A stretch of 64,000 bases of DNA from positions 1 through 64,000 of the forward strand of contig CAMWYJ010000005.1 in the NCBI GenBank assembly GCA_947178445.1. The letters run 5' to 3'. The notes beneath the pieces are model-generated. The model had not been told where the DNA came from. It saw only the letters and a program-made list of their open reading frames with translations, and made no database searches. Positions 2,815 through 46,842 of this stretch are shown here, in pieces. The first letter of the stretch is position 1; each line of letters begins with the position of its first letter. The translations under genes were made by a program, and so were the position numbers. This DNA is from an uncultured Clostridium sp. Lineage in GTDB: Bacteria; Bacillota; Clostridia; Lachnospirales; Lachnospiraceae.

Positions 2815-3582
2815 TTATGCTTTTTCATTTGCTGCATCGTCCTGTCTGCGGCGTTTAGCAGCTTTTAAGATGATTTCTCTTGCCCGGATTGCCTCCTCCT
2901 TTGGCAAATCCTTAAGTCCCTTTAAAGGATATTCCATGCCAAGGTTTTTATATTTTACAACACCCATGCTGTGATATGGCAGGCAGTCTAAAGCCTTTAA
3001 ATGTTTAAGTCCGCCAATAAAATATCCAAGCTGGTCGAGGTATTCATCTACCAAAGTGATACCTTCTACAATAACGTGGCGGATCCAGATATCAATGCCC
3101 TGTTCATCCAGAAATTTGGCAAAATCCAGTATGTTGTCATTTGGTTGCTTGCAAAGTTCTTTGTGCTGTTCCGGGTCAATGTGCTTGATATCAAGCATAA
3201 CCAAATCTGTACATTTTGCAAGGCGTTCAAATTTTTTCAAAAGTTCTGGATTATCCCTGCGGAAAATGACACCGGATGTATCTAAGCAGGTGTGGATTCC
3301 TTTTGCCTTTGATGCTTCAAATAACTCAATCAAAAAATCCATCTGCATGAGGGGTTCGCCACCAGTTGCCGTAATACCGCCATTGGTGTAAAAAGATTTG
3401 AGTGAATCATATTGTGCTAATAAATCCTCTACTGTATGGTCTTCCCCACCCTGTGGATCCCATGTATCTGGATTATGACAGTATTTGCAACGCATCGGAC
3501 AGCCTTTAAAAAACACAACAAACCGCATTCCTGGACCGTCTACCGTTCCACATGTCTCTATTGAGTGAATGTGTCCAATCAT
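2815..3582 (-). CDS. pflA: Pyruvate formate-lyase-activating enzyme (radical SAM)
   Basis: This enzyme uses S-adenosylmethionine and a [4Fe-4S] cluster to abstract hydrogen from the conserved glycine of PFL, switching it on under anoxia. The radical SAM signature CxxxCxxC is present in C-P-M-R-C-K-Y-C-H-N near residues 28-37, after the typical start (MIGHIHSIETCGTVDGPGMR). The SAM-binding GGEP stretch is present (T-G-G-E-P-L). The length of 255 aa is normal for PflA. It sits downstream of the pfl genes on the same strand, with an insertion element (family A copy 1) in the gap before it. RBS AAAGGAG is 10 nt upstream of the ATG. Confidence 0.95.
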   Translation of the reverse strand: MIGHIHSIETCGTVDGPGMRFVVFFKGCPMRCKYCHNPDTWDPQGGEDHTVEDLLAQYDSLKSFYTNGGITATGGEPLMQMDFLIELFEASKAKGIHTCLDTSGVIFRRDNPELLKKFERLAKCTDLVMLDIKHIDPEQHKELCKQPNDNILDFAKFLDEQGIDIWIRHVIVEGITLVDEYLDQLGYFIGGLKHLKALDCLPYHSMGVVKYKNLGMEYPLKGLKDLPKEEAIRAREIILKAAKRRRQDDAANEKA

Positions 3583-3613
3583 ATATTTGGTGCTCCTTTC
3601 TGAAAACAGAAAA

Positions 3614-3757
3614 TTAGGCGTTTGTGAAACTCCTGATTTTCAAAACCTAGTTGTGCAATATAGACAATGTCATAAGCAGCGCAAGCGTGCCCAGCGTTGA
3701 TATTGTCTATATTGCACGACGGAAGTCTGCAAAAACTTAAGTTTCGCAAACACCTAA
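3614..3757. mobile_element. Family A MITE-like element, copy 1 (144 bp, exact 8-bp target duplication)
   Basis: The left end TTAGGCGTTTGTGAAACT matches the inverted right end (TTAGGTGTTTGCGAAACT when reversed) at 16 of 18 positions. A second inner inverted repeat, TGCAATATAGACAAT / ATTGTCTATATTGCA, lies inside. The exact 8-bp direct repeat ACAGAAAA flanks it at 3606-3613 and 3758-3765, as expected of a transposition target duplication. It contains no gene and would need a transposase from elsewhere. It separates the glycyl-radical domain gene from pflA. Confidence 0.88.
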
Positions 3758-3859
3758 ACAGAAAATATGAGAAACAAGCTTTGCAGGTTTCCCAAGTGCA
3801 TAAACGAAAAAGGGACAAGGGCTTAATGCCCTTGCCCTCTTATGCATTAAAAAGTCTGA

Positions 3860-4102
3860 TTACATAGACTCATGGAATGTTCTTGAGATAACGTCAGCCT
3901 GCTGTTCTGGAGTTAACTTAATGAAGTTAACAGCGTATCCAGATACACGGATTGTCAACTGTGGATAGTTCTCTGGATGAGCCTGAGCATCTAATAATGT
4001 ATCACGGTTTAATACATTAACATTTAAGTGATAACCACCTTTTTCAATATAACCATCTAACATGTTTACTAAATTATCAACTTGTTGTGAATTTGTAGCC
4101 AT
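3860..4102 (-). CDS. Stand-alone glycyl-radical domain of pyruvate formate-lyase (GrcA/YfiD-like, 80 aa)
   Basis: This small protein matches the C-terminal domain of [12 protein letters not shown], then [15 protein letters not shown], ending I-S-R-T-F-H-E-S-M. The radical-bearing glycine is Gly55 in RVSGYAV. It has its own ATG with AAGGAGGA 8 nt upstream, and it lies downstream of the core gene, which lacks this domain. In E. coli, YfiD (GrcA) is a homologous small protein that can replace an oxygen-damaged radical domain. Here it appears to be the only intact glycyl domain, so it should be an obligatory subunit. Core 680 plus 80 gives 760 residues, the usual single-chain length. Confidence 0.9.
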
Positions 4103-4151
4103 TGTATAAATCCTCCTTATTAATTTATAATTGATTCCCGCGGGCAGCGCA

Positions 4152-4181
4152 CCAAGTGTACATGTCTGCATGAACATTTGG
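4152..4181. repeat. Family C short hairpin repeat (copy 2)
   Basis: CCAAGTGTACATG-TCTG-CATGAACATTTGG forms a hairpin with a CCAA...TTTGG base, followed by CGGCTGC. It lies in the 101-bp gap between the two small pfl genes. It lacks a T-run, so it is not a simple terminator, although it could act as an RNA processing or stability element. Confidence 0.5.
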
Positions 4182-4203
4182 CGGCTGCAGCGGGGGTGTT
4201 GAC

Positions 4204-4422
4204 TTAGTTGTCGTGCAGTTCCTCGTCCATACCTTCCATTAATGTTGGAACACTGCACGCAAGATCGCCTTTTGCGCAATCGGTACAGCCAAGTGTCACG
4301 GTAGACTTTTCACCGTCGTTGACACTCTCATCCATGGATACATTAATGTGTCCGTGTCCGTTCCCTACCATGTTATCTAACATAGCAACAATGTCATCAA
4401 CCTTACTTTTCTCGTCAGCCAT
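4204..4422 (-). CDS. Small GrcA-related protein with a cysteine tail in place of the glycyl loop (72 aa)
   Basis: Residues 1-32 resemble the start of the neighbouring glycyl-radical protein: [12 protein letters not shown] then G-H-I-N-V-S-M-D, against [12 protein letters not shown] then Y-H-L-N-V-N-V-L. The second half differs entirely: it lacks RVSGYAV and holds [12 protein letters not shown] followed by an acidic end. An ATG with CGGAGGT upstream and clear gaps on both sides make it a separate gene. It sits between PFL core and radical domain. No function is known to me; it may occupy the radical-domain dock on the core, or sense redox or metal through its cysteines. Both are inferences. 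Confidence 0.8.
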
Positions 4423-4491
4423 AATAAACCTCCGAAATATTATTCAATAAATAGATGCCGGAAAAACGGCAATAGTCTTGAATGAAAATGC

Positions 4492-6534
4492 TTATTTGCT
4501 CAAGTCAATATCAATGTCACCAGCAAATACCTGATCCTCTTTACCAAGAGCACCCGGGATGATAGAGAAGGTATTAGAAATACCATCCTGTGCATCCTTG
4601 AATGGAATCTTAGCAACAGATGCAAGAGATGCTACTGCACCATGAGTATCTCTCTTGTGAAGTGGGTTAGCACCTGGAGCAAATGGAGCACCATGCTTAC
4701 GTCCACAAGGAGTATCACCAGTATTCTTACCATATGTTACGTTAGAAGTAATTGTAAGAATTGACTGTGTAGGAACACCGTTACGATATACATGATTTTC
4801 ACGAATCTTATTCATGAAAGTTGTAACGATATATGTTGCAAGCTCATCCACACGGTCATCATTGTTACCATACTTAGGGAAATCTCCCTCTGTCTTGTAG
4901 CTTACTACGACACCCTGCTCGTTACGAACCGGATATACCTTAGCATACTTGATAGCTGATAAAGAGTCAGCAACGATGGAAAGACCTGCAACACCAGTTG
5001 CAAAGTATCTCTTAACATCTCTGTCATGTAATGCCATCTGGATTCTCTCATAAGCATACTTATCATGCATATAGTGAATGATATTAAGAGCGCTGACATA
5101 AACCTTAGCTAACCAAGACATCATGTCATCAAATTTCTCCATAACATCATCAAAGTTAAGAGGACCATCACCCTCGATTGGACGATACTTAGGTCCTACC
5201 TGAACACCAGTACACTCATCAACACCACCGTTGATTGCGTAAAGTAAACATTTAGCAAGGTTAGCACGTGCTCCGAAGAACTGCATTTCCTTACCAATAA
5301 CCATTGAAGATACGCAGCATGCGATACCATAGTCATCACCGTGAAGAGGTCTCATCATATCATCATTCTCATACTGGATAGAAGATGACTTAATAGACAT
5401 CTTAGCACAGAACTGCTTCCATCCCATAGGAGCCTTTGTTGACCAAAGAACGGTTAAGTTTGGTTCTGGAGCTGTGCCTAAGTTGTTAAGAGTATTCAGA
5501 TAACGGAAGCTCATCTTAGAAACCAGGGTACGTCCATCAACACCCATACCACCTAAGGATTCTGTTACCCAAACCGGATCACCAGCGAAAATCTGGTTGT
5601 ACTCTGGTGTACGGGCAAACTTCACGCAACGTAACTTCATTACAAAGTGGTCAACGAACTCCTGAATCTGTTCCTCTGTGAAAGTACCAGCAGCCAAATC
5701 TCTCTCAGCATAAATATCTAAGAAAGTAGCGGTACGTCCAAGAGACATAGCAGCACCATTCTGCTCCTTAACTGCTCCTAAATATCCGAAGTATGTCCAC
5801 TGAATAGCCTCCTGTACATTCTTAGCTGGCTTAGAAATATCAAAACCATAGAAAGAAGCCATTTTTGTCAATTCTTTAAGAGCCTTAATCTGCTCAGAAA
5901 TCTCTTCCTTACCACGAATTACATCATCTGTATATACGCGTCCGAAAGATTCCTTCTGCTCTAACTTGTCCTCGATCAATCTGTCTGTACCGTAAAGAGC
6001 AACTCTTCTGTAGTCACCAATGATACGTCCACGGCCGTAAGCATCCGGAAGACCGGTTACGATGTGGTTTGTACGGCATTTTCTGATCTCTGCATCATAT
6101 ACATCGAACACACCTTCGTTATGTGTTTTTCTGTGCTTTGAGAAGAAATCTACAACCTCAGGATCAACAGTATATCCGTTATCCTCACAAGCCTTCATAG
6201 CCATACGAAGACCGCCGTATACGTTCATACCTCTCTTGAATGGGGCGTCTGTCTGGAAACCAACGATTGTCTCCTTATCCTTATTTAAGTAGCCAGCACC
6301 ATGAGAAGTTAATGTAGAAACAACCTTGGTATCCATATCAAGAACACCACCTGCTTCTCTCTCTTTCTTTGTTAAATCCATAACCTGTGCCCAAAGATCT
6401 TTTGTGTTCTGGGTTGGTCCGCATAAGAAAGTATCATCACCTTCATATGGTGTGTAGTTCTTCTGGATAAAGTCACGAACATCGATGAACTTTTCCCAAT
6501 TACCGCCTGTGAAACCATTCCATTCAGCATTCAT
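4492..6534 (-). CDS. pflB: Pyruvate formate-lyase core subunit lacking the glycyl-radical domain (680 aa)
   Basis: This is formate C-acetyltransferase, which turns pyruvate and CoA into acetyl-CoA and formate. The N-terminus (W-N-G-F-T-G-G-N-W) and active-site cysteine pair C406-C407 (Y-G-I-A-C-C-V-S-S) are canonical. The chain follows the family up to S-N-T-F-S-I-I-P-G-A-L-G and then stops after about 18 more residues (ending DIDIDLSK). The last ~80 residues of normal PFL, including the radical glycine, are absent and are encoded by the gene at 3860-4102. AAAAGGAGGA precedes the ATG. It is first in its operon, behind a clear promoter, with pflA further downstream. Confidence 0.93.
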   Translation of the reverse strand: MNAEWNGFTGGNWEKFIDVRDFIQKNYTPYEGDDTFLCGPTQNTKDLWAQVMDLTKKEREAGGVLDMDTKVVSTLTSHGAGYLNKDKETIVGFQTDAPFKRGMNVYGGLRMAMKACEDNGYTVDPEVVDFFSKHRKTHNEGVFDVYDAEIRKCRTNHIVTGLPDAYGRGRIIGDYRRVALYGTDRLIEDKLEQKESFGRVYTDDVIRGKEEISEQIKALKELTKMASFYGFDISKPAKNVQEAIQWTYFGYLGAVKEQNGAAMSLGRTATFLDIYAERDLAAGTFTEEQIQEFVDHFVMKLRCVKFARTPEYNQIFAGDPVWVTESLGGMGVDGRTLVSKMSFRYLNTLNNLGTAPEPNLTVLWSTKAPMGWKQFCAKMSIKSSSIQYENDDMMRPLHGDDYGIACCVSSMVIGKEMQFFGARANLAKCLLYAINGGVDECTGVQVGPKYRPIEGDGPLNFDDVMEKFDDMMSWLAKVYVSALNIIHYMHDKYAYERIQMALHDRDVKRYFATGVAGLSIVADSLSAIKYAKVYPVRNEQGVVVSYKTEGDFPKYGNNDDRVDELATYIVTTFMNKIRENHVYRNGVPTQSILTITSNVTYGKNTGDTPCGRKHGAPFAPGANPLHKRDTHGAVASLASVAKIPFKDAQDGISNTFSIIPGALGKEDQVFAGDIDIDLSK

Positions 6535-6609: not shown

Positions 6610-6638
6610 ATTATAGATTTATCTTGTATACACGTCAA
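6610..6638 (-). promoter_or_regulatory. pfl promoter with TGTATACA palindrome in the spacer
   Basis: Read on the minus strand: -35 TTGACG (6638-6633), exactly 17 bp, -10 TATAAT (6615-6610). Transcription should start near 6603, about 70 nt before pflB. The palindrome TGTATACA (6625-6632) lies between -35 and -10, a position where a bound repressor would block polymerase. The same octamer recurs at 6749-6756. Confidence 0.8.
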
Positions 6639-15940: not shown

Positions 15941-15956
15941 AAAAGCAGTATGAAAA

Positions 15957-16053
15957 AGGAGGAAGGCAAATGCAGAGCATTTTTTTAATGCCTTCCGACG
16001 ACATGCCGCCGAACCAAAGGTGAGGGGGCAATTCATTATTATACTAGGAAGGT
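15957..16053 (+). ncRNA. Leader D, copy 1: about 97-nt conserved 5' leader (candidate regulatory RNA)
   Basis: Nearly identical to 46748-46842 (only a few differences, mostly in one loop). It can fold into a stem GGAAGGCA/TGCCTTCC (15961-15968 with 15989-15996) and a second hairpin 16004-16030 (T-G-C-C-x-C-C...ACC-AAA-GGT...GGGGGCA). It runs up to the ribosome site. The downstream genes of the two copies are unrelated. It does not match c-di-GMP-I, c-di-GMP-II, TPP, glycine or ZTP riboswitch cores as I know them. Confidence 0.6.
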
Positions 16054-46698: not shown

Positions 46699-46747
46699 AT
46701 GCTTATTATGAATCAGAGCAGCCTGCAGGAATATAGTTTTGACAAAC

Positions 46748-46842
46748 AGGAGGAAGGCAAATGCGAAGCATTTTTTAATGCCTTCCGACGACATGCCGCC
46801 GAACCAAAGGTGAGGGGGCAATTCATTATTATACTAGGGAGG
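46748..46842 (+). ncRNA. Leader D, copy 2: conserved 5' leader (candidate regulatory RNA)
   Basis: Nearly identical to 15957-16053 through both stems and up to the ribosome site (TACTAGG[A/G]AGG). Differences: two bases swapped near one loop (TGCGAAGC instead of TGCAGAGC) and one T fewer in the T-run. Here it precedes a response regulator, there a secreted protease. Confidence 0.6.

Follow-up and report, generated by a model that had tools for sequence, protein, structure and literature searches.

The pyruvate formate-lyase (PFL) locus described here lies in a window of 64,000 nucleotides, positions 1 to 64,000 of contig CAMWYJ010000005.1 (assembly GCA_947178445.1) from an uncultured Clostridium sp. 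of the Lachnospiraceae. In this locus, a central fermentation enzyme is made in pieces: a body, a radical-carrying part, and an overlooked cysteine-bearing third protein. These are the catalytic core, the small glycyl-radical subunit GrcA3, and a protein that we call M. In our reading, to which we give a probability of roughly 45% as a whole, GrcA3 would be an obligatory subunit, M would be the detached form of a cysteine tail that other split cores carry themselves, and the tail would serve as a thiol guard of the empty core.

The core was identified as a PFL by its match to the equivalog model TIGR01255 (1061.7 bits, curated cut-off 994.2), and its adjacent cysteines, Cys406 and Cys407, are invariant in 38 aligned rows. 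The glycyl-radical loop of a PFL is not in this chain and sits in the small protein, which exceeds the curated cut-off of the GrcA3 model NF038360 (161 bits against 158). The first-pass annotation, made from the letters of the window, had described a 680-residue core that stops before the glycyl-radical domain and a separate 80-residue gene for this domain with Gly55 in RVSGYAV. Both were confirmed, the small gene having its ATG at 4102, its stop at 3860 and AAGGAGGA upstream. The core covers residues 10-681 of Escherichia coli PFL (1h16/1cm5) and GrcA3 covers residues 683-759, so that the pieces abut and the enzyme is cut with no part missing. The Pfam profile Gly_radical is divided in the same way, with positions 1-50 on the core and 50-106 on the small protein. 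The distance between the two genes, put at 390 bp by the annotation, is 389 bp. This gap is not empty, since it holds the conserved 72-residue gene M; the earlier interpretation is thus partly supported, with the split itself confirmed and M overlooked.

The genome assembly is 90.25% complete in 165 contigs, and neither a second copy of the core nor a full-length PFL, for which the annotation had proposed to look, was found in it. A whole-genome search with Gly_radical gave five matches, namely the two halves at the locus and three other genes. Each of these scores above the curated cut-off for NrdD, a class III ribonucleotide reductase (RNR), and two of them adjoin an NrdG gene. The exact abutment of the core C-terminus and the small protein is also what would speak for a frameshift, a pseudogene or an assembly artefact, with M as a decayed remnant. 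This explanation is extremely improbable and was rejected on the conservation of the arrangement and the selection on M. The comparison with relatives, likewise proposed earlier, showed the identical arrangement in 154 of 210 fetched loci, and the split recurs in 13 loci outside the family. Moreover, M has its own ATG and GGAGG and is under purifying selection, and it is placed after GrcA3 in one locus outside the family (L268) and elsewhere in other genomes.

Among the 210 loci, 30 and 100 had been drawn by GrcA3 matches and 80 by core similarity, with partial overlap between the collections (e.g., L023/L106). They comprised 154 split and 44 fused PFLs, while two core-only loci and ten without a core stand outside these two groups. 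M was present in the fetched stretch of 113 of the 154 split loci, and the core tail had no cysteine in any of these 113. In the other 41, 38 core tails hold two or more cysteines (for example, DCSNGACSSPTLFEGLD) and three hold none; in the genomes of these three an M-like gene was found elsewhere (L249, E 6e-20; L250, 4.5e-6; L256, 8.2e-5). A further set had 30 loci, 12 fused and 18 split, and five of the 18 belong to the window's family, all with M, and were excluded. The remaining 13, from outside the family, were distributed as four with M, six with a tail and three with neither. Over all 167 split loci, M was nearby in 117, a tail was present in 44, M was elsewhere in three (one weak), neither was found in three, and both were found in none. 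Fused PFLs had M nearby in 0 of 44 and, in the further set, 0 of 12, and no cysteine at the tail position in 39 of 44 and 12 of 12; two have one cysteine there. From this distribution, M is with high probability the detached form of the two-cysteine tail borne on other split cores.

Several side observations were made in the same collections. Core position 494 (P0001 numbering) is a cysteine in 67% of 95 split cores and 6% of 48 fused ones and is an alanine in the window's core; this cysteine could be a partner of the tail. Ten of the 130 places fetched around GrcA3-type matches had no PFL core nearby (L035, L162, L169, L183, L186, L188, L192, L194, L203, and L207). These are possibly extra copies, and L183 lies at a contig end. 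In the genomes of two loci with a fused PFL, L113 and L117, a separate GrcA3 was found approximately 34-44 kb away on the same contig (L251 and L253).

The first approximately 35 residues of M are paralogous to the start of GrcA3 and comprise a helix and the strand corresponding to beta-10 of E. coli PFL. In the alignment, which holds 46 of the 54 sequences remaining after thinning at 90% identity, 42 members give a hit to NF038360 at E<=1, the best at 1.3e-6, and five give one to Gly_radical (best 0.0042), the remaining matches looking like chance; conversely, the M profile retrieves GrcA3 N-termini. In the second half, the radical loop is replaced by (C)xDCAxGxLACxVPTLxEGxD. All 46 sequences share the residues D16, G24, H25, C49, A55, C56, and P59 without exception. 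The median ratio of nonsynonymous to synonymous substitution was 0.145 for 90 pairs of moderate synonymous divergence from 108 distinct genes, which indicates purifying selection. The window's M had no match in Pfam at E<=10 or in PHROGs at E<=0.01, the M profile had none in the PDB below E 0.1 (best 0.11), and no M was confirmed in the viral contigs. M and the exchange between M and tail were in no library searched. M as a known family was rejected on these searches, and the matches to Gly_radical and to the GrcA3 model are those that the paralogy predicts.

In 398 genomes of the phylum, the M profile matched in 13, at full length only in its own genome and G180; the other matches were the homologous N-terminal segment inside frames of 744-790 residues. 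In the family sample, 85 of 200 genomes matched at E<=0.001, 53 places being listed at E<=1.1e-11, and the weaker matches were mostly GrcA3 N-termini. GrcA3 itself was above its cut-off in 70 of the 200 family genomes and in 16 of 291 genomes of the class.

To place the module, meaning M or the cysteine tail, on a phylogeny, an unrooted FastTree tree was computed from 154 cores with the tails left out, thinned from 223 rows at 93% identity within a state. A starred branch (98) separates the main split lineage from the other cores. The exchange between M and tail takes 15 changes on the best tree, and four independent pairs remain on starred branches alone. Five fused PFLs nested in the split lineage make up a starred group (99) with neither tail nor M, and four of the five cluster again in an IQ-TREE tree (98). 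A search for M in the five genomes gave no match in three and weak matches in two (8.7e-4 and 2.1e-4, the latter within the fused frame). From their nested place on unrooted trees, we infer that these PFLs are re-fusions and not remnants of a fused state. Since the module is present in all but three of the 167 split loci and absent from the nested fused group, these results suggest that the need for it was created by the split. The module goes with the main split lineage, and splits without it exist.

The glycyl-radical domain is very probably an obligatory and exchangeable subunit of this enzyme. The core would supply the active-site cysteines, and GrcA3 would dock where the C-terminal domain is missing. 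PflA would set the radical on Gly55 of GrcA3, from which it would move to the active-site cysteine pair at every turnover. Oxygen would cleave GrcA3 at the glycine and leave the core intact, and a fresh 80-residue GrcA3 could then be fitted. The predicted structure of one tail-bearing core (L107) with its tail and GrcA3 matches 2pfl over residues 1-755, the tail being modeled at low confidence, and the last 30 residues of this core had no match in the PDB. E. coli PflB resembles the window's PFL in its core fold, active-site Cys-Cys pair, RVSGYAV loop and PflA partner; unlike it, PflB is a single 759-residue chain with no cysteine tail in the match, and no M-type relative was found in the PDB set. 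GrcA3 in turn resembles E. coli GrcA (YfiD) and Y06I of phage T4, separate glycyl-radical proteins that dock on a PFL core, and its residues 21-80 match residues 68-127 of YfiD. The role of YfiD is the repair of a full-length PFL, and its first 60 residues are disordered (PMC8683613). GrcA3, in contrast, has no such extension, and no full-length PFL for which it could be a spare part was found in the assembly (90% complete).

The same study describes truncated E. coli constructs that imitate a split. The truncated core with truncated YfiD reached full turnover once activated (204 vs 105 per second), while its radical uptake was far lower (2.7 vs 17.2 uM), and neither the truncated core with YfiD nor truncated YfiD with the cleaved core bound strongly enough for a measurement (PMC8683613). 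A natural split would thus face two problems, the assembly itself and a socket that, when empty, leaves the active-site cysteines exposed. The assembly problem may be what M and the tail solve, by holding the truncated core open or recruiting GrcA3 or PflA in place of the recognition element at residues 696-733 of E. coli PFL. With residues 696-733 deleted, YfiD took up 32-fold less radical, and isothermal titration calorimetry detected no binding of the truncated core (PMC8683613); the split core lacks this region, and M holds a copy of its first part. We consider an assembly or activation factor unlikely, as the core-borne tail consists of the cysteine part only, with no copy of the docking segment, and two invariant cysteines would be superfluous in an element that serves recognition alone.

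We favor a guard of the second problem, the empty socket. As M retains a copy of the first segment of GrcA3, it would be expected to occupy the GrcA3 socket whenever this is vacant. This borrowed docking segment would present the tail in trans, and to an empty socket only. By analogy with RNR, we tentatively propose that the dithiol tail reaches into the open active site of such a core, where it maintains or restores the reduced form of Cys406/Cys407 or traps them in a protective mixed disulfide until fresh GrcA3 arrives. The association of the module with the split, the varied spacing of its cysteines, the low confidence of the tail in the model, which is usual for unordered tails, and the likeness of some tails to NrdA together favor the thiol guard.

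The comparison with RNR has both likenesses and limits. PFL and RNR share a barrel fold, and class III RNR matched the L107 PFL model in the fold comparison. The tail of E. coli NrdA (class Ia RNR), GCESGACKI, has the C-x4-C spacing found in 14 of 38 PFL tails, such as DCSNGACSS, and both NrdA and the split PFLs have a C-terminal cysteine pair on an enzyme with active-site cysteines. The two tails are likened by analogy, the PFL-side tail can be a separate protein, and the PFL cysteines are not known to be oxidised at each turnover. In the window, the cysteine pair is on M, and the core C-terminus bears no tail of the RNR type. In the RNR family, the C-terminal pair conveys electrons to the active site (PMC5704485). 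A further step, which we regard as rather doubtful, is that a dithiol arm guarding the empty core evolved convergently with that of RNR and became the separate protein M. This arm would plug the socket through its GrcA3-like segment, and PFL would alternate between working with GrcA3 in place and waiting with M as the plug.

Two other uses of the cysteines were considered. Small iron-sulphur subunits, which have four cysteine ligands per cluster, accompany known glycyl-radical enzymes such as benzylsuccinate synthase and 4-hydroxyphenylacetate decarboxylase, and M resembles them as a small cysteine-bearing protein beside such an enzyme. The cysteines of M could bind a metal, either zinc or an iron-sulphur cluster common to both protomers, and M would then be a small cluster subunit of this kind. 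This is improbable. M has two invariant cysteines in 46 sequences, too few for a cluster unless one is shared between chains, which is possible; its N-terminus derives from GrcA3. No such subunit was matched in Pfam, in NCBIfam or, by sequence, in the PDB. In addition, the tail cysteines are spaced 0 to 6 residues apart, with 1 and 4 the commonest (14 of 38 tails each), and a flexible dithiol fits this variation better than a fixed metal site. The tail thiols could alternatively quench the glycyl radical ahead of oxygen, as a built-in deactivase by which the radical subunit is saved and not replaced. The same distribution data and the tie to the split state suit a quencher, but docked GrcA3 should keep the radical buried, and the socket that the tail must enter would already be filled. 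This function is improbable. A disulphide between tail and GrcA3 was rejected because only 5 of 217 GrcA3 open reading frames (164 distinct) contain a cysteine. A half-site model, with M on one protomer and GrcA3 on the other, was also considered; in vivo data argue against half-site reactivity in E. coli (PMC12338860), and the core-borne tail is at odds with such a model.

A number of observations weigh against the thiol guard and the module behind it. The loci were collected by searches targeting GrcA3 and cores resembling the window's. Three of the 167 split loci have neither M nor tail, genome-wide too (one of these genomes is 82% complete), and the match to the unlinked M of L256 is weak and extends over roughly half the model. 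In three fused PFLs (L113, L117, and L166), the linker retains a cysteine motif, and the four independent M/tail pairs are too few for a sign test to reach significance. There is a second split lineage (99), composed of the tail-less cores L283, L303, and L304. L303 is on a phage-like contig; L304 comes from a viral collection, has neighbours that look bacterial, and encodes an uninterrupted tail-less core with GrcA3 behind it. This lineage and the tail-less PDB chain 38la, which ends in LGKED, indicate that some split PFLs can do without the cysteine module. The model of core and M gave a predicted local distance difference test score of 61.8, with the tail under 50 and no usable dock. Furthermore, an assembly or activation role fits the same distribution of M and tail, and the redox, binding and activity parts of the guard are deduced from sequence comparison.

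The split is not without precedent. GrcA3 is a named family in NCBIfam, and two entries of the PDB, 38la and 38lb, resemble split cores, 38lb having the tail ...KPDCACAA; 38la could be a shortened construct. The chains of the two entries showed no match to the radical subunit, and no M protein was found in either. Neither entry was among the best 50 rows of either fold comparison (library ending 2026-04-08). In a literature search, whose coverage mostly excluded subscription journals, none of the titles and abstract openings listed described a split PFL or GrcA3.

GrcA3-like proteins also occur in viral collections. Twelve viral-collection contigs (L303-L314) encode them, some adjoining genes that resemble nrdD and nrdG, and in L303 and L314 the PFL core is in two frames with a stop between. 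A GrcA3-like stretch at E<=1e-5 was found in 1539 of 50,697 phage records, mostly of phages named after enterobacteria.

The features of the locus are collected in Table 1. The promoter-like site was identified by its consensus match only, and such sites number 12 in the region against 12.5 in shuffled sequences. The weak hairpin between core and M may act as a dosage step between the two genes. The palindromic element in the interval between GrcA3 and pflA is a dispersed hairpin repeat, since 96 pieces of the genome match it, many only in part.

Table 1. Features of the PFL locus and other elements of the window.
Feature	Position	Strand	Description
Promoter-like site upstream of core	6610-6638	-	TTGACG-17-TATAAT, 11/12 consensus match
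PFL catalytic core	4492-6534	-	680 aa; Cys406-Cys407; C-terminus ...AGDIDIDLSK without cysteine
Weak terminator-like hairpin between core and M	4456-4471	-	
M	4204-4422	-	72 aa; N-half paralogous to GrcA3 start (helix and beta strand), C-half cysteine tail
GrcA3	3860-4102	-	80-aa glycyl-radical subunit; Gly55 in RVSGYAV
Terminator-like hairpin after GrcA3	3813-3837	-	10 pairs, T-rich tail
Palindromic element, GrcA3-pflA interval	3600-3780	-	Fold of 3590-3790: -73.7 kcal/mol, z -7.6
PflA, PFL-activating radical S-adenosylmethionine enzyme	2815-3582	-	255 aa; TIGR02493 275.3 bits, cut-off 231.75
GA-cis RNA	15954-16039	+	Rfam RF02987, 69-70 bits (both copies), gathering 34.7
GA-cis RNA	46745-46829	+	Rfam RF02987, as above

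PFL is widespread in the gut microbiome, and oxygen destroys it (PMC8683613). The opening, activation and exchange of its radical domain have been studied in truncated E. coli constructs whose radical uptake is low (PMC8683613). The natural split PFL offers a test bed for these three steps, and the cysteine module names the residues to change. If the more doubtful step, the alternation between GrcA3 and M, is true, it would mean an oxygen-tolerance system within the central enzyme of an anaerobe.

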